Source of the DNA: Granulicella sp.
Lineage (GTDB): Bacteria > Acidobacteriota > Terriglobia > Terriglobales > Acidobacteriaceae
Direction of reading: 5' to 3'
Assembly: GCA_027452215.1 (NCBI GenBank)
Contig: DAIDGQ010000037.1
Span: 1-64,000, forward strand
Length of the DNA stretch: 64,000 bases
The notes below the pieces were generated by a model. That model did no database searches, had not been told where the DNA came from, and saw nothing but the letters and a program-made list of their open reading frames with translations. Shown here in pieces: positions 49,247-55,747 of this stretch; within the stretch, counting starts at the first letter, position 1, and each line of letters opens with the position of its first letter. Both the position numbers and the translations under genes were made by a program.

Positions 49247-50748
49247 GCGATACAAAGGCCAGCAAAATGTGGTCGGGTCGCTTTCGCGAGCCCCTCGATC
49301 GCACGTTTGAGCAGTGGCAGCGGTCGTTTCCGGTTGACTGGCGATTACTTCCTCACGAAGTGGCTGCCAGTTCTGCGCATGCTCGGATGATTGCTGCTGC
49401 TGGTGTTCTTACATCTGAAGAGCTTGAGAAGACGCTTCAGGGGCTTATCGCAGTAGGACAACGCCCGGACAACTGGGCACACCGTATATCTGCTACCTCG
49501 GGCGAGCCAGAGTATGCGACCAGCACACAGCAGATCGGCGCTGCTATTGTGGCCAGCGCACCGCAAGCGGAGGATATTCATCACTACGTTGAGCTGGAAC
49601 TCACTCGCGAGATTGGCAGTCTTGCGTTGAAGCTTCATACTGGCCGCAGCCGCAACGAGCAGATCGCGACGGACATGCGCCTCTTCGTGCGCGAGAGTAT
49701 CGATGCAACTCTCTTTGGTCTTGAGCAATGGATTGCAGCCCTCCTCTCACTTGCGGAGTCAGCCGGAGACTCGGTGATGCCCAGCTATACCCACTTGCAA
49801 CGAGCGGAGCCTGTGCTCGTTGCGCATTGGATGTTGGCATATGTCAGCATGGCTGAACGGGATCATTCGAGGCTGGTGGATGCACGCATCCGCGTGAACT
49901 TATGCCCGCTAGGATCCGGTGCGGTGGCCGGTGCAACGCTAGCTCTTGATCGCCACATCGCAGCTGAAGCTCTGAACTTTGATGCTCCTACGCCGAATAG
50001 CATGGACGCTACGAGTGATCGCGACTTTGCCATTGAGTTTGCTCAAGCTCTTTCGATGCTTGGGCTGCATATCTCACGCTTTGCCGAAGAACTCACACTC
50101 TACTCCACAGCTGAATTTGGATTTCTGGATCTACCGGAGCGATTCTCCACCGGTTCAAGCGCTATGCCACAGAAGAAGAATCCCGATCTGACCGAATTGA
50201 TTCGCGGCAAGTGCGGACGACTCACTGGGACGGTGGTGGCGCTCAGTACCATCATGAAGGGACTACCCCTCGCTTACAACAAGGATTTGCAGGAAGGCCA
50301 AGAGCCCGTATTTGACGCGGCTGATACGATTGCAGGCGTCCTTAGCGTGCTGCCCTCCTTTACAAGGTCTCTCAAATTTCGCTTTGACAAGATGGCGGGC
50401 GCGGCCGAAACCGGCTATCTGAATGCGATGGCTGCCGCGACGTATCTAACTCACAAAGGAGTTCCATTTCGGAAGGCACACGAGATCATTGGGAATGTCG
50501 TTCGTTTCGCACTTGAACACGATAAGGAACTCCACGCTCTTCGTCTTGATGAGTTACAGATGTTTGCTCCTGAGTTTAGTCTGGATTTTCACGATGCAAT
50601 TTCATTGCGAGCGACGATTGATTGCCATGATGTGATGGGCGGTACGGCTACGGCTCGCGTGAAGCAGTCCCTGACGGAGGCACAGTCTCGAGCGAAGGCT
50701 CGGGATTTGACACGACACCATTCCGTTTCGGAGGTTGTCAATGCCTGA
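49243..50748 (+). CDS. argH: Argininosuccinate lyase
   Basis: A 501-residue fumarase/aspartase superfamily lyase. KMWSGRFREPLDRTFEQWQRSFPVDWRL is the family opening, LHTGRSRNEQIATDMRLF and TSDRDFAIEF lie in the active site, and GSSAMPQKKNPD is the signature with the catalytic Ser. It splits argininosuccinate to arginine and fumarate. The start is GTG at 49243 within the argG stop (GTGA). The acetyltransferase gene overlaps its last codons. Confidence 0.95.
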   Translation: MSDTKASKMWSGRFREPLDRTFEQWQRSFPVDWRLLPHEVAASSAHARMIAAAGVLTSEELEKTLQGLIAVGQRPDNWAHRISATSGEPEYATSTQQIGAAIVASAPQAEDIHHYVELELTREIGSLALKLHTGRSRNEQIATDMRLFVRESIDATLFGLEQWIAALLSLAESAGDSVMPSYTHLQRAEPVLVAHWMLAYVSMAERDHSRLVDARIRVNLCPLGSGAVAGATLALDRHIAAEALNFDAPTPNSMDATSDRDFAIEFAQALSMLGLHISRFAEELTLYSTAEFGFLDLPERFSTGSSAMPQKKNPDLTELIRGKCGRLTGTVVALSTIMKGLPLAYNKDLQEGQEPVFDAADTIAGVLSVLPSFTRSLKFRFDKMAGAAETGYLNAMAAATYLTHKGVPFRKAHEIIGNVVRFALEHDKELHALRLDELQMFAPEFSLDFHDAISLRATIDCHDVMGGTATARVKQSLTEAQSRAKARDLTRHHSVSEVVNA

Positions 50749-51286
50749 GATCCGGGTGCACAAAGCACATCTTCAGGACGCACGGAACGTCTTCGACCTG
50801 GTGAATTCGCTTTCCGGCGACGGCACCCTACTGCGCCGGAGTTATGCGGAAATTTGCGAAAACATTCGTGACTTCACGGTTGTCGAGGAAGAGAACGAGA
50901 ATTTTCTTGGCTGCGGAGCGTTGCATCTCTATGGACCTCATCTTGCTGAGGTCCGCTCAATCGTCGTCAAGCCTGAGTCTAAAGGGCTCGGTGCGGGTGG
51001 CCTATTGCTTCAGGCTCTCGTAGAGGAAGCAGAGGAGCATGCCGTACTTTCAGTATGCCTTTTCACGCGCATTCCTGAGTTCTTCGAACACTTCGGTTTC
51101 CGTGTGGCGGAACGCGATGCAATGCCTGACAAGATTTATAAAGACTGCCAAACATGCCCACGGCTCTACGCGTGCGATGAGGTTGCGATGGTGCGCGGAC
51201 CATTGCCGAAGGTCGCGATGCTGGGACCCCGAACTCTGCAGCGTCCAGAGCTTGTAACACTGCAGCTGAGTTCTACAGGCACTTAG
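50741..51286 (+). CDS. argA: N-acetylglutamate synthase-like GNAT acetyltransferase
   Basis: A 181-residue single GNAT domain. It opens EIRVHKAHLQDARNVFDLVNSLSGDGTLLRRSYAEI, the pattern of short ArgA-type enzymes, and the acetyl-CoA loop is VVKPESKGLGAGGLLL. A late patch (DCQTCPRLYACDEVAM) contains three cysteines. It would acetylate glutamate to start arginine synthesis; the cluster carries no argJ to recycle the acetyl group. ATG at 50741 follows GGAGG and overlaps argH by eight bases. It ends 12 bases from the convergent ABC ATPase gene. Confidence 0.82.
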   Translation: MPEIRVHKAHLQDARNVFDLVNSLSGDGTLLRRSYAEICENIRDFTVVEEENENFLGCGALHLYGPHLAEVRSIVVKPESKGLGAGGLLLQALVEEAEEHAVLSVCLFTRIPEFFEHFGFRVAERDAMPDKIYKDCQTCPRLYACDEVAMVRGPLPKVAMLGPRTLQRPELVTLQLSSTGT

Positions 51287-51298
51287 CCCTAGGCATGC

Positions 51299-52099
51299 TT
51301 ACCATGCATTCCAATAACCTGCGCGCTCCGTTAGGGCGATGTCGCGTCCAAATAAGCCACTCAAATGCTCCGGGGTTAGCAGAACCTTCTTGGATCCGTC
51401 CGCCACGACGCGCCCGTCACGCATCATCACGATGCGATTGATCTCGGGCAGTATGTCAGCGATGTGATGGGTGATGAGAAGGATCGCTGTCCCTCGCTGT
51501 GCAAGACCACGCAGCATCTCGCGCAGGTCATGCTGCGCACCAGGATCCAGGGCATTAGAAGGCTCGTCCAACAGCAACATTTGGACATCACTATGATCAT
51601 CAGTGGTTGTTGTTCCAGCTATTGCGCGGCCTATCATGATCCGCCGCTGCTGGCCGGCGGACATCTCCCCTACCAGCTTAGAGCGCAGATCTTCTGCTCC
51701 TATCCAACCAGTGATCTCTTCAGCGCGCTCACGCATTTGCGGGGTGACCGTAAGGTTCGGCCATAGTGTCGAACTGGAAAAGAAGCCTGTGAGAATGGTG
51801 TCGAACCCCGTAGTGGACAAAGTCGGCTTTCCAGGAAGCTCCGTTGCCACCACACCCATTTTTCGCCTCAGTTGGGTTAAGTCCCAGCGCTCACGTCCCA
51901 TGATACGCAAATGCATTTCGGGGCGAACCAACGGGTAGACTTCGCAGGTGATCGTCTTAAGCAATGTGGATTTGCCGCATCCGTTAGGGCCGAGAATCGC
52001 GAGATGTTCGCCAGGATTTATCTGCAAACTCAGATCATGCAGAATGATGTTGTCCCCACGAGCAACAGATACATGCCTCAGATCAACGATTGGATCCAT
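51299..52099 (-). CDS. Orphan ABC transporter ATPase
   Basis: A 266-residue ATPase. Walker A is LGPNGCGKST, the Q-loop segment lies near ATELPGKP, the signature is MSAGQQRR in place of LSGGQ, Walker B is VQMLLLDEPSNALDPG, and the switch is THH. No permease gene is adjacent. Such stand-alone ATPases resemble molybdate or iron ATPases, but the substrate is not deducible. It is the last gene of a four-gene operon and its ATG overlaps the glycosyltransferase stop by one base (a GTG one codon earlier is also open). Confidence 0.87.
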   Translation of the reverse strand: MDPIVDLRHVSVARGDNIILHDLSLQINPGEHLAILGPNGCGKSTLLKTITCEVYPLVRPEMHLRIMGRERWDLTQLRRKMGVVATELPGKPTLSTTGFDTILTGFFSSSTLWPNLTVTPQMRERAEEITGWIGAEDLRSKLVGEMSAGQQRRIMIGRAIAGTTTTDDHSDVQMLLLDEPSNALDPGAQHDLREMLRGLAQRGTAILLITHHIADILPEINRIVMMRDGRVVADGSKKVLLTPEHLSGLFGRDIALTERAGYWNAW

Positions 52100-52791
52100 C
52101 ACTGCGCTCCTCGACGAACGCGCAGAAAAACACCTAAAATCCGTCGTGCTGCGTCGACAGAAGCGCCTAGGTTACCAGAGACTTTAGATTCGCCGCCGAT
52201 CCTCCGCTTGTAATCTACAGGGATCTCAATAATCCGCAAGTTGAGTTGAATCGCTTTCAATTGCATCTCAAGATTCCATCCATAGGTCATCTCGCTCATT
52301 TGCATTTGCTCCAAAGATCCGCGCCGTATTGCACGGAAGGGACCCATATCGGTGTATCGAAATCCGTAGAAGATCTTTGTCAGCCAGCCCATCAGAAATG
52401 CCGCAAATAACTGGCTTGTCAGCATCGATCCGGGGTCGCGCTGCCCGCGCACTCGAGACCCAATCACAAAGTCCGCCTCGTTCCGCGCGATCGGCCCGAT
52501 GAGTCGTGACATGTCATGAATGCAGTCAGAACCATCTCCATCCATGCATAGCAGAATCGTGCTCGAACTCAGCGCCGCGTTCACTCCGGCTTGCATTGCG
52601 GCACCATAGCCGCGCGGCGACTTGATGACACGAGCTCCCGCTGCCGCTGCAATTTCGTCCGTCCCATCGGTGCTCCCGTTGTCTACGACGATGCATTCGT
52701 CGATGAGCTCCCATGGCATAGAAGACACAACCAAGCCGATTGATTCAGCTTCATTAAGCGCGGGAATGATCACAGAAACATACGAGGACAT
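52099..52791 (-). CDS. Family 2 glycosyltransferase (polyprenyl-phosphate sugar transferase type)
   Basis: A 230-residue GT-A glycosyltransferase. It begins VSVIIPALNEAESIGLVVSSMP, then VDNGSTDGTDEIAAAAGA and MDGDGSDC as the metal-binding DxD-like motif. The length and absence of transmembrane helices resemble dolichyl- or polyprenyl-phosphate mannosyltransferase-type enzymes, which feed a membrane GT-C transferase. The upstream neighbour is such a GT-C protein, four bases away. Confidence 0.87.
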   Translation of the reverse strand: MSSYVSVIIPALNEAESIGLVVSSMPWELIDECIVVDNGSTDGTDEIAAAAGARVIKSPRGYGAAMQAGVNAALSSSTILLCMDGDGSDCIHDMSRLIGPIARNEADFVIGSRVRGQRDPGSMLTSQLFAAFLMGWLTKIFYGFRYTDMGPFRAIRRGSLEQMQMSEMTYGWNLEMQLKAIQLNLRIIEIPVDYKRRIGGESKVSGNLGASVDAARRILGVFLRVRRGAQ

Positions 52792-52795
52792 CGAT

Positions 52796-54223
52796 CTAGT
52801 TTAGCTGCCGTGATTCTTGGTGAGGCTCGACGTCGCTGAGATGAAAATGGCTGGACGTGATCGAAAAGCGTTTGATCGCAAAATGCAAGAGAAACGCGAG
52901 CAAAACAACACTATAGAGAATCTTGTTTAGCAAGAACATCTTTGGTCCTGGATCAGCCAAGGCCGTTGTAAAGAGATAGAAAAATGACATCAGGTAGGCA
53001 AGGAGCGGTAAATTGGGGGCGATCGTAAAGAGTGGTATGAGCCAGACAACATACCAAGGATAGTGCGGAGAAAACAAGAGCATCATGGCAAAGCCAAGTA
53101 ACATGGCGGCACGAAGGAACGCAGGATTGTTCTTGAAACGCTGCGCTTCGTCCTTGGCAGATTCCCTGCTCGCGTTATTCCATGACCAGAGGCTGATGCC
53201 TCCGAGGACAGCGGCGGAGAGTATCAGGTATCCGGCAACAGGGAAATGCTCGAGTCCGCGAAGAGACTGCACTAACTCGAGGAGAAAAAATCGAGCCCCA
53301 CTATCAATTCCCTCTTCTTGCGTGTAGCCAGGAAGAAATCCGAAGACCAGTTTGCCCACCGAAAGATAGGGCAGATAAGATAAAGCGCAGACGGTGGCAA
53401 GTGTAGTGGGCATCTTCCAATCTCCTCGCTTGTATAGCGCGGGAAGGAGCACCAGCGGGTAGAACTTTGTCATCACTGCGAGGGCAAGAAAGAGCCCCGT
53501 CAGCACGGGTTGCTCACGATAGCGGAACAGAAGCGCGAGTGTGACAAACGCAAAGACGGCCGCGTCGATGTGTCCAGCATCTCCAATTTCCCAAGCCAAT
53601 AACGGGCACCATGCGTACAGCAGGATCTGAGTTTTGGGACGGCGCGCCCCCCGGAGCAACGACAGCAGCGCACCTGCGGTGAGGCACTCGAAGCCGAACA
53701 TGACGATCTTCATCGCCAGAACGGTTGGCGAAATGAACGTCGCCAACCAATAGATCATCTGCGCGACTGGGGGATAGATGGTTCGTGCGTAATCACGACG
53801 ATTGATGTGATCAAAGATGCTTTGATTTGGCGCGCGCAGGAAGCCAAGGGCGGGGTCACCCGGCACATAGCGATAGGGGCTAATGTGCGCGTGCTGCACA
53901 ATGCCGTCCCAGACATACCGATAGATATCGGATGATAAAAATGGATCCGCTGACAGCGTGATGATGCGAAGCGCAATGGCAAAGACGATCACAATCCAGA
54001 AGGTTGCGCGATTGTCGGGTTGAGTAAGTACGACGATGACGGATGCGATATAAAGCAGTGCCGACCAGCCGGAGCAGCCGGAAAAGCCGATCGTGAAGTG
54101 GTGAAGTTGGAAGGTAAACTGCCTGGTTAGCATCAGAAGACCAATGCCAAAAACACAAAGCGTAACGTTGGTCATCCATGGGCGTCCCTGGCGCAATAAG
54201 ATTAAGGATGGACTTATCCTCAT
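52796..54223 (-). CDS. Polytopic GT-C (GT87-like) mannosyltransferase
   Basis: A 475-residue membrane protein with about 11 hydrophobic segments. Between the first helices is SADPFLSSDIYRYVWDG, the Asp-rich loop of GT-C enzymes, followed by HISPYRYVPGDPALGFLRAP and later GDAGHIDAAVFAFVTLAL and LAVMTKFYPLVLLPALY. These match alpha-mannosyltransferases that use polyprenyl-phosphate mannose. It would add a hexose on the periplasmic face of a lipid-linked acceptor. ATG overlaps the preceding gene by four bases (ATGA). Confidence 0.8.
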   Translation of the reverse strand: MRISPSLILLRQGRPWMTNVTLCVFGIGLLMLTRQFTFQLHHFTIGFSGCSGWSALLYIASVIVVLTQPDNRATFWIVIVFAIALRIITLSADPFLSSDIYRYVWDGIVQHAHISPYRYVPGDPALGFLRAPNQSIFDHINRRDYARTIYPPVAQMIYWLATFISPTVLAMKIVMFGFECLTAGALLSLLRGARRPKTQILLYAWCPLLAWEIGDAGHIDAAVFAFVTLALLFRYREQPVLTGLFLALAVMTKFYPLVLLPALYKRGDWKMPTTLATVCALSYLPYLSVGKLVFGFLPGYTQEEGIDSGARFFLLELVQSLRGLEHFPVAGYLILSAAVLGGISLWSWNNASRESAKDEAQRFKNNPAFLRAAMLLGFAMMLLFSPHYPWYVVWLIPLFTIAPNLPLLAYLMSFFYLFTTALADPGPKMFLLNKILYSVVLLAFLLHFAIKRFSITSSHFHLSDVEPHQESRQLN

Positions 54224-55068
54224 GGCTGTTCTTCCACTGAATGGTTCGACGACATATTCATATTTTCATGCAAGGCTTGTCGGCGCGCTGCAAGGTAGTC
54301 CCTGGTGCTCTCTGCCTTATAGCCGTCGATCCTTGAGAAGCGGGGTCTCACGCCGTTAAGGAGTTCCTCCTCCAGAACGGCAAGGGTTGCGGCATCGTCG
54401 ACGTCGTACCACTGAGGCAGTTCGACGAACTCCAATCGAGCATCACGAATGCGTTCGAGTGTCTCTAAATAGACACTCGCGGTACTCCATGTGATGCGCT
54501 CAAAGAGCGTGGCGTGAGGGTGCTTGACGCCAATCAGATAGTAGCCGCCATCTTCGGAGCCACCCAATACGACTCGATCGCCGGGTTGCATAAGTGCTTC
54601 AACGGCCAACTCAAGCGCCTTCACTGGAAGCGTCGGGGAGTCTGAATCGATGAGGCACACGGCGCCGTAACCACTAGTGAGAATGTCCTCGGCGGCTGCG
54701 AGTAGACGCTCACCAAAAGCTTCTCCTCTCTGGGGTATGAGCAAAAAGCCCTCTGGTAACAGTCCACTAAAGGCTGCTTCATCCCCTACTGGGGTGTAAC
54801 AGATGAGGCCTGCCGCTAAGCCCTGCGCAACTACCTCCGCGATGTTATTTGTAGTGTCTCGGAGGAAGCAGATATTTAGAGCCGCAGACTCATCAAGGGT
54901 AAGGGGGGGCGAGAGGCGCGTCTTTACTTTGCCGGGCCGCGGAGCTTTTGCCATAACGGCGAGGGCACACCTGGATTGGCGCACAGACTGAACCTCCGAC
55001 GGGTCAAGAATTGCATAGGAAGGACCTTGGGGTGTGATTGGTACATCTGCGGATGCATCCTGCGCCAT
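54220..55068 (-). CDS. DUF2064/TIGR04282-type glycosyltransferase
   Basis: A 282-residue protein of the nucleotide-diphospho-sugar transferase superfamily. The family opening is VMAKAPRPGKVKTRLSPPL, and LIDSDSPTLP and LGGSEDGGYYLIGV form the sugar nucleotide site. This family is annotated as arsenosugar-type glycosyltransferase in other bacteria, but no ars gene is near, and lipid glycosylation is the better guess from context. It is the first gene of the operon with the GT-C enzyme, GT2 and ABC ATPase. Confidence 0.82.
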   Translation of the reverse strand: MAQDASADVPITPQGPSYAILDPSEVQSVRQSRCALAVMAKAPRPGKVKTRLSPPLTLDESAALNICFLRDTTNNIAEVVAQGLAAGLICYTPVGDEAAFSGLLPEGFLLIPQRGEAFGERLLAAAEDILTSGYGAVCLIDSDSPTLPVKALELAVEALMQPGDRVVLGGSEDGGYYLIGVKHPHATLFERITWSTASVYLETLERIRDARLEFVELPQWYDVDDAATLAVLEEELLNGVRPRFSRIDGYKAESTRDYLAARRQALHENMNMSSNHSVEEQP

Positions 55069-55144: not shown

Positions 55145-55747
55145 TTATTCATTCTCGAAGCCGCGGTTCCACTTCGAGATGATGCGCGTTTCGCGTTCGA
55201 ATCCGAGGACGCTAACGCTGCCGGTTCCCAATCCAAACAACTGTCCGCCAACCGCTGGCAGGCCGATCCATCGAGCGGCGAGAATCCGCAGGATATGGGC
55301 ATGCGCGAAGAGTGCAATGGCACCACCTGAAGGCGCTGAAGCTAGTGCTTTCGCGATCATCGCGTCTGCCCTGTCCCCGACGTGTTCTACCGATTCCCCA
55401 CCGAGGATGGGGTTGGTCCAGACACTCCAATTCGCACCGTGGATCTCACGCATTTGAGCCGTGGTCTTGCCTTCGCTTTCGCCGTAATTCCACTCCTTGA
55501 GATCTTGGTCGATGATCGCGATGTCGCCATAACCTGCGATGTCGCAAGTATCGCGAGCACGCTTCAGTGGACTCACGAATACCGCTGCAAACTTCTTGCC
55601 TGCCAGATAGTCCCGCAGTTCCACGGCGCGCTGGCGTCCGTGTGCCGTGAGCGGAATATCTGTCCAACTTGTGTGCCGTCCATCCAGGCTCCACTCGGTT
55701 TCACCATGTCGCACCAACCACAGTTCTATGTTTCCCTCAGGCATCAT
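55145..55747 (-). CDS. Histidine phosphatase superfamily protein
   Basis: A 200-residue phosphoglycerate-mutase-like phosphatase. The catalytic motif is [17 protein letters not shown] (RHG), the Glu general acid is in the VEHV/ELRDYL region, and the second His is in [13 protein letters not shown]. It dephosphorylates a small phosphate ester. A GGGAGGG site precedes its start. The start is ATG at 55747, only 28 bases from the divergent uvrB ATG, so the two promoters must overlap. Confidence 0.9.

Follow-up and report, generated by a model that had tools for sequence, protein, structure and literature searches.

A conserved DUF2064-glycosyltransferase cassette in Granulicella as candidate core of a lipid-linked sugar-capping pathway, with a probably separate ABC ATPase neighbour

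What might four closely packed genes of an acidobacterium make together, and do all four belong to one system? The question is raised by a 64,000-nucleotide stretch of Granulicella sp. DNA (the window), whose minus strand encodes a DUF2064 protein, a GT-C membrane glycosyltransferase, a family 2 glycosyltransferase (GT2) and an ABC ATPase. An earlier note, made from the sequence alone, had read these genes as an orphan operon with a lipid-linked glycan or glycolipid as its possible product. The four open reading frames (ORFs) and their tight joins are indeed present: DUF2064 and GT-C overlap by 4 bases, GT-C and GT2 are separated by 4 bases, and GT2 and the ATPase again overlap by 4 bases. All four proteins exceed the curated cut-offs of their families, the GT87 match of GT-C being the weakest. 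Here we argue that DUF2064, GT-C and GT2, which we call the triad, form the central part of a pathway for lipid-linked sugar capping with a likely nucleoside-derived, 5-modified pentofuranose (best guess 5-methylthio-pentofuranose), and that the ATPase is separate, a combined reading for which we see the chances as evenly balanced.

To assess the distribution of the triad, 120 genomes of the order were searched, among them that of the window. GT-C was found in 37 of them (E <= 0.001; 21 of these at 360 bits or more), GT2 in 29 (E <= 1e-25) and DUF2064 in 34 (E <= 1e-5), and close forms of all three are held by the same 21 genomes, which are patchily spread over the genera g1 (3 genomes), g4 (15) and g8 (3). 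An alignment scan of 84,980 species genomes with GT-C returned 320 relatives, which rules out a singleton operon. Among the best 80 of these 320 relatives, where presences are lower bounds since many loci end at contig ends, profile searches recovered GT-C in 79 loci, DUF2064 in 77, GT2 in 69 and all three in 66; the same loci hold a molybdopterin (Moco) oxidoreductase in 32 cases, cytochrome b561 in 30, a class I methyltransferase in 30, the ATPase in 11 and a histidine phosphatase in 3. Hosts include Acidobacteriaceae (also Granulicella, Edaphobacter and Terriglobus), Pyrinomonadaceae, Bradyrhizobium, Methylobacterium and Acetobacteraceae, and annotated plasmids of two Methylobacterium species carry cytochrome b, Moco oxidoreductase, a hypothetical protein, DUF2064, GT87, a radical S-adenosylmethionine (SAM) enzyme and GT2 in a row. 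Among the rows of the GT-C tree that have a named host, that of Granulicella sapmiensis is nearest to the window. Contigs labelled Verrucomicrobia (L095) and Rhodanobacteraceae (L121, L122) bear acidobacterial forms of the cassette and were probably mis-binned; on that tree L095 and L122 fall within Acidobacteriaceae, and L121 was left out as too short. Judged from these matches, Acidobacteriota and Alphaproteobacteria share the triad as a conserved cassette, and Actinomycetota have a distant relative of it. The word 'orphan' was therefore misplaced, as the triad recurs in several phyla and its partner genes can stand at other places in the genome.

Two further enzymes follow the triad and replace each other. 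A close short-chain dehydrogenase/reductase (SDR; 83-100% identity to the protein of genome G084, above 700 bits) occurs in 9 of the 120 genomes and a close radical SAM/SPASM protein (83-92% identity) in 12. These two sets are disjoint and add up to precisely the 21 triad genomes; at such identity, neither enzyme is found in any of the 99 genomes that lack the triad. Likewise, 47 of the 80 loci carry the radical SAM enzyme, 18 the SDR, none both and 15 neither. The close SDR is set off by a wide gap, the next-best in the sample scoring 331 bits at 46% identity; weaker relatives occur in 34 further genomes (E <= 1e-60; 43 of 120 in total), so the family is common and only its close form tracks the triad. 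A search of seven genomes found the close SDR in G000 (the window's own), G024, G084 and G120, all of which have the triad, and best matches of 35-37% in G106, G088 and G107; no radical SAM relative was present in the window's genome or the six others. The SDR gene adjoins the triad in five genomes and lies at a distance in four, the window's own among them, and because it is unlinked in these four, linkage alone fails to explain the co-occurrence. No other cassette gene scored above threshold in the regions around five unlinked SDR genes, and plasmid SDR matches at about 40% identity were too general, one fetched example being unrelated. When the loci on the GT-C tree are labelled by their linked genes only, 4 changes are needed for the SDR label (at least 4 on well-supported branches) and 8 for that of radical SAM (at least 6), which suggests more than one swap. 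From this mutual replacement, the SDR and the radical SAM enzyme may serve one sugar-adjusting step interchangeably. Among the matches listed in the literature searched, we found no report of such a mutually replacing pair of partner enzymes.

The Moco oxidoreductase, a member of Pfam Oxidored_molyb whose nearest NCBIfam model is MsrP (66.7-73.7 bits, below the cut-off of 207), shows the same distribution. Counted by its best matched piece at 56% identity or more, it is present in all 21 triad genomes and in 0 of the 99 others, where the best matches reach 45-49% near full length (G075, G074, G033, G006, G036) or 50% over 138 residues (G015). Five of the 21 genomes (G084, G060, G114, G016, G030) have its gene linked to the triad, and a cytochrome b561 gene adjoins it in all eight loci fetched from the 16 in which it is unlinked. 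In the window's organism, whose assembly (G000) is 59% complete with 2.5 Mb in 45 contigs, the triad, the SDR and the b561-Moco pair are spread over three contigs (Table 1). A SAM methyltransferase lies beside DUF2064 in the 30 loci mentioned above. Just upstream of the unlinked b561-Moco pair, four genomes of the radical SAM type encode an FAD-dependent-oxidoreductase-like protein of 562-588 amino acids, judged from its N-terminus, and in L189, L190, L191 and L194 it is accompanied by a small protein of about 130 amino acids. These two are possibly further members of the pathway.

What the triad does was approached through family models and predicted structures, bearing in mind that a shared fold by itself is no demonstration of function. 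The DUF2064 protein scores 157.8 bits against TIGR04282 (cut-off 134), and its predicted model (pLDDT 93.4) matches 3cgx (Z 26.0), MM2497 (20.0), the 3-phospho-D-glycerate guanylyltransferase 7p97 (19.5) and FbiD/Rv2983 (18.1); K41, K49-TRL, D143, P145 and DGGY are invariant in 35 sequences. The fold is thus that of CofC/FbiD and 3-phosphoglycerate guanylyltransferase, but the protein differs from CofC/FbiD in falling below the cut-off of the CofC model TIGR03552 (27.6 against 105 bits) and in having glycosyltransferases as its genetic partners. It is likely a CofC-like nucleotidyltransferase, with a substrate not assignable from fold. For GT-C (pLDDT 91.4), the VIA-align Z scores are 22.1 for ALG3, 20.4 for GPI mannosyltransferase 1, 19.2 for ALG6, 18.0 for ArnT and 16.8 for PimE, enzymes that use lipid-phosphate sugars, and Foldseek gave a single match with E < 0.001, families outside these two lists not being excluded thereby; S97 and D99 are invariant in 42 sequences. 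The model shares its fold with PimE, ALG3, GPI mannosyltransferase 1 and ArnT over 262-341 aligned residues, but at only 11-15% identity, and the fold fixes neither acceptor nor sugar. At fold level GT-C would be a periplasmic transferase that uses a lipid-phosphate sugar. GT2 matches the dolichol-phosphate mannose synthase 5mlz (profile E 1e-20), its best NCBIfam model is AglJ (122.5 bits, below the cut-off of 325), and D84, G85, D86 and D89 are invariant in 18 sequences; at family level it is a putative polyprenyl-phosphate sugar synthase. The sugar machinery proposed in the earlier note, a nucleotide-sugar enzyme with a polyprenyl-phosphate sugar synthase and a transferase in the membrane, is therefore borne out at the level of family and fold, the first as a nucleotidyltransferase-like enzyme and the last as a transferase of the kind for lipid-linked sugars.

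Table 1. Coordinates of the locus, of its candidate partners and of neighbouring genes. Positions are those of the window unless a genome and contig or a locus is named.
Feature	Position	Strand	Details
DUF2064 / TIGR04282 nucleotidyltransferase-like protein, first triad gene	54220..55068	-	282 aa; PF09837 103.2 bits (cut-off 25.8)
GT-C membrane glycosyltransferase (GT87-like), second triad gene	52796..54223	-	475 aa; GT87 28.5 bits (cut-off 25)
GT2 polyprenyl-phosphate sugar synthase-like protein, third triad gene	52099..52791	-	230 aa; PF00535 Glycos_transf_2 74.4 bits (cut-off 23.3)
ABC ATPase without permease	51299..52102	-	267 aa; ABC_tran 82.8 bits (cut-off 25)
Histidine phosphatase (branch 1)	55145..55747	-	PF00300 164.8 bits
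GNAT protein, after argH	50735-51286		N-acetyltransferase family 154.2 bits (cut-off 154)
SDR, window's genome	G000:C22:138192-139319		88% identity
Cytochrome b561-Moco pair, window's genome	G000:C35:118984-120078		70% identity
FAD-oxidoreductase-like protein	L189:3249-4937; L190:3225-4991; L191:2977-4734; L194:3485-5248

In its make-up the set is similar to the pathway by which mycobacteria cap lipoarabinomannan with methylthioxylose (MTX), since two of four actinobacterial plasmid cassettes add a methylthioadenosine phosphorylase (MTAP). On the plasmid of Arthrobacter sp. U41 the order is GT2, DUF2064, methyltransferase, GT87, MTAP, SDR (epimerase) and Moco oxidoreductase, the last reversed, and the phosphorylase matches the solved MTA phosphorylase 1wta (E 5e-55). 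A Kitasatospora plasmid carries MTA phosphorylase (1.7 kb from GT-C), two Moco genes, cytochrome b, GT-C, a methyltransferase, DUF2064 and an epimerase. Identities between the window and Arthrobacter are 38% for GT2, 29% for DUF2064 and 26% for GT-C; the SDR of a relative reaches 35% over 347 columns and the Moco protein of a relative 35% over 115 columns, and BLAST finds no similarity between the methyltransferase of one acidobacterial cassette and that of Arthrobacter. An EEG motif is found in 22 of 29 GT-C rows, those of the window, Arthrobacter and Kitasatospora among them, and is missing from four diverged acidobacterial rows, Miltoncostaea, Nonomuraea and one Sphingomonas. On the GT-C tree, a branch supported at only 88/84 puts Arthrobacter, Kitasatospora and Nonomuraea on the same side as the window.

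Two observations on these outlying relatives are added here. The diverged acidobacterial rows belong to a group of five loci (GTC*; L055, L056, L057, L058, L059) that hold a triad relative arranged as GT2-DUF2064-GT-C. A DoxX-like gene lies upstream of it in four of these loci, and four of the five encode an exported-looking protein downstream; Bradyrhizobium cassettes are also flanked by proteins similar to those around these triads. On the plasmid of the actinobacterium Miltoncostaea oceani (L164), a 651-amino-acid protein annotated as GT2 also matches GT-C and adjoins DUF2064, radical SAM, DoxX and selenocysteine genes.

In mycobacteria, MtxS (Rv0539) is described as making lipid-linked MTX and MtxT (Rv0541c) as transferring it to lipoarabinomannan (PMC8780516), with methylthioadenosine as the starting donor (PMC11127046), and both MTX and its sulfoxide are reported on lipoarabinomannan, with H/C shifts near 2.1/17 ppm for the S-methyl and near 2.8/40 ppm for the sulfoxide methyl (PMC9912281). 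Kelly et al. 2024 call it unclear whether MTX addition occurs beyond lipoarabinomannan assembly (PMC11127046); passages of PMC9912281 and PMC3089613 mention only mycobacteria, and those of PMC6302742 do not mention MTX. Among the matches listed in our literature search, no title gave a case of MTX outside mycobacteria. At the level of family and fold, the MTX pathway pairs a GT2-type polyprenyl-phosphate synthase with a GT-C transferase as the triad does, a likeness of gene composition, and in the Arthrobacter plasmid DUF2064, MTAP, SDR and Moco oxidoreductase also stand in one cluster. We take Rv0535, Rv0536 and Rv0540 to be the MTAP, epimerase and DUF2064 of the mycobacterial MTX cluster. 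There are differences, however. The window's genome has its SDR and b561-Moco pair unlinked to the triad and no MTAP linked to it, a radical SAM enzyme replaces the SDR in other triad lineages, and the triad hosts are Gram-negative soil bacteria, which are not known to make lipoarabinomannan. A three-component periplasmic pentofuranose addition system (Kelly et al. 2024, PMC11127046) likewise pairs a polyprenyl-phosphate pentofuranose donor with a periplasmic GT-C, but it charges the lipid from phosphoribosyl pyrophosphate (PRPP) and has a flippase, whereas the triad has a CofC-like nucleotidyltransferase and GT2 instead. Neither a PRPP enzyme nor a flippase was recognised in the cassette, though no search was aimed at them.

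We propose the following route. Going by its fold, the DUF2064 enzyme would activate a small sugar phosphate to a nucleotide sugar, which the SDR epimerase, or the radical SAM/SPASM enzyme in other lineages, might then adjust, as their mutual replacement suggests. GT2 would move the sugar onto polyprenyl phosphate in the cytoplasm (family level) and, after flipping by a putative flippase, GT-C would transfer it to a surface glycan in the periplasm (fold level). The oxidoreductase of cytochrome-b561/molybdopterin type, of the MsrP/sulfite-oxidase kind, may finally act on the exported sugar. A 5-methylthio-pentofuranose would derive from methylthioadenosine, as in the MtxS/MtxT pathway, and by analogy an MTX/sulfoxide pair such as that on lipoarabinomannan would suit an MsrP-like oxidoreductase. 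We infer a lipid-linked capping mechanism with good confidence. That the sugar is a nucleoside-derived pentofuranose could go either way, and its narrower identification by analogy as a methylthio-pentofuranose falls somewhat short of an even chance.

Several results weigh against this proposal. The genomes of the sample are related and not independent, and the identity cut-offs for the SDR, radical SAM and Moco proteins were chosen after the scores had been seen. Roughly half of the triad genomes give a Moco match that falls into two pieces, the N-terminal one at about 50% identity. The cassette methyltransferase has no close form in G000, G024 or G120, and neither it nor the radical SAM enzyme has a known counterpart in the mycobacterial MTX pathway. 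As to the sugar, a single-sequence model found no triad-linked MTAP among the 80 loci from Acidobacteriota and Alphaproteobacteria, the fetched stretches of the other two actinobacterial plasmids (Nonomuraea and Miltoncostaea) hold none, and MTAP occurs in 6 of 7 genomes searched whether the triad is present or not; in the window's own genome, 59% complete, it was not found. Because MTAP is unlinked in the 80 loci and independent of the triad, the sugar may be another nucleoside-derived pentose or something else. The same lipid-linked machinery could then carry a plain or 5-deoxy pentofuranose (for example from 5'-deoxyadenosine, a radical SAM by-product) or an ordinary hexose, with the Moco/b561 proteins in another redox job. 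The matches of GT2, GT-C and DUF2064 set the type of chemistry and not the identity of the sugar, and the best structural matches of GT-C are users of mannose or glucose. It also accommodates the purine-nucleoside-phosphorylase-like gene of 7 of the 80 loci, which overlaps the cassette by 1-13 bases in three alphaproteobacterial loci (L125, L136, L146); the solved proteins that match it best are purine nucleoside phosphorylases of the general kind, it is not clearly an MTAP, and the alphaproteobacterial protein has no BLAST similarity to the Arthrobacter MTAP. What speaks for a methylthio sugar instead is the clear MTAP in or near the cassette in two of the four actinobacterial plasmid relatives, together with MsrP, a methionine-sulfoxide reductase, as the nearest, sub-cut-off model of the oxidoreductase. 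We give the alternative sugars a substantial minority chance.

Does the ATPase take part in capping by a 5-modified pentofuranose? One role for it would be to power export or flipping of the lipid-linked sugar as the fourth member of one functional unit. Such a unit has its 4-base overlap with GT2 in the window and the same order (histidine phosphatase, DUF2064, GT-C, GT2, ABC) in G024, L084 and L095 in its favour, and every one of the 21 triad genomes also possesses the ATPase. In another genus (g4), moreover, many genomes have the triad no more than a few genes away from the ATPase. However, the ATPase is found in 86 of the 120 genomes (E <= 1e-40), 65 of them without the triad, and it is for this reason that we do not count it as part of the pathway. 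Among seven other genomes of the genus it is present in all and the triad in two (G024, G084), so that the ATPase stands without the triad in five of seven close relatives. In G084, G016, G060 and G040 the triad is distant from every ATPase match, and, as the earlier note had said, no transmembrane partner of the ATPase adjoins its gene in the window, an unlinked permease being possible. On this distribution we reject a four-gene unit that includes the ATPase, and its having such a role strikes us as very unlikely; the protein is probably a separate neighbour outside the sugar pathway. The earlier note had named an ATPase or transferases standing alone in close relatives as grounds against its reading, and for the ATPase this is what is seen, while the triad itself is conserved.

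A histidine phosphatase ORF, absent from the operon first described, lies on the same strand 76 bases upstream of DUF2064, and in all six loci fetched from the genus that have no triad at this place (G106, G088, G107, G043, G083, G084) the histidine phosphatase leads directly into the ATPase on the same strand, with 15-175 bases between it and the first ABC codon matched. In G024 a small opposite-strand ORF also stands between the histidine phosphatase and DUF2064. The position of the triad between the two genes reflects either an insertion in the window's lineage or a loss in relatives; an ancestral presence followed by losses and moves is possible, because many g4 genomes likewise have the triad close to the ATPase and argH. 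Recurring neighbours of the ATPase in fetched relatives are histidine phosphatase, DoxX, GNAT and AIM24 genes. The GNAT protein of the window is also similar to amino-acid N-acetyltransferases, and the ATPase itself ends in a C-terminal tail G-(F/Y/W)-x-x-(A/S/V)-W in 19 aligned sequences (alignment A4).

Arsenosugar biosynthesis, to which the name of TIGR04282 alludes and for which one could cite the DUF2064 score above that family's cut-off and arsenite methyltransferases among the weak best matches of a relative's linked methyltransferase, is rejected as a most improbable reading on the sub-cut-off scores of that methyltransferase (L077, one representative; at most 62 bits against ArsM cut-offs of 240-575) and of GT2 against TIGR04283 (53.7 bits, cut-off 182) and on the lack of any methyltransferase, radical SAM or Moco match within the window, in line with the first impression that nothing there points to arsenic, and Moco/b561 and GT-C proteins are not known to take part in the arsenosugar route.

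To conclude, we describe a triad of DUF2064, GT-C and GT2 genes whose presence is matched by a mutually replacing enzyme pair and a Moco oxidoreductase. Capping with a methylthio-pentofuranose, so far known from mycobacterial lipoarabinomannan, might be a general bacterial surface modification, in which at least two enzymes, the SDR and the radical SAM/SPASM protein, are interchangeable and the thioether/sulfoxide state is set by a periplasmic b561/molybdopterin oxidoreductase dedicated to it, a tentative extension that we hold to be possible rather than probable. If it is true, Acidobacteria and rhizobia would use methylthio-pentofuranose as a redox-active surface sugar. The set names non-mycobacterial organisms in which MTX addition can be tested, namely Granulicella, Edaphobacter, Terriglobus, Methylobacterium and Bradyrhizobium. 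It predicts that the radical SAM enzyme and the SDR do the same job and offers a candidate substrate for a family of periplasmic molybdoenzymes, and the DUF2064 family, named for arsenosugars, would gain another concrete candidate role.

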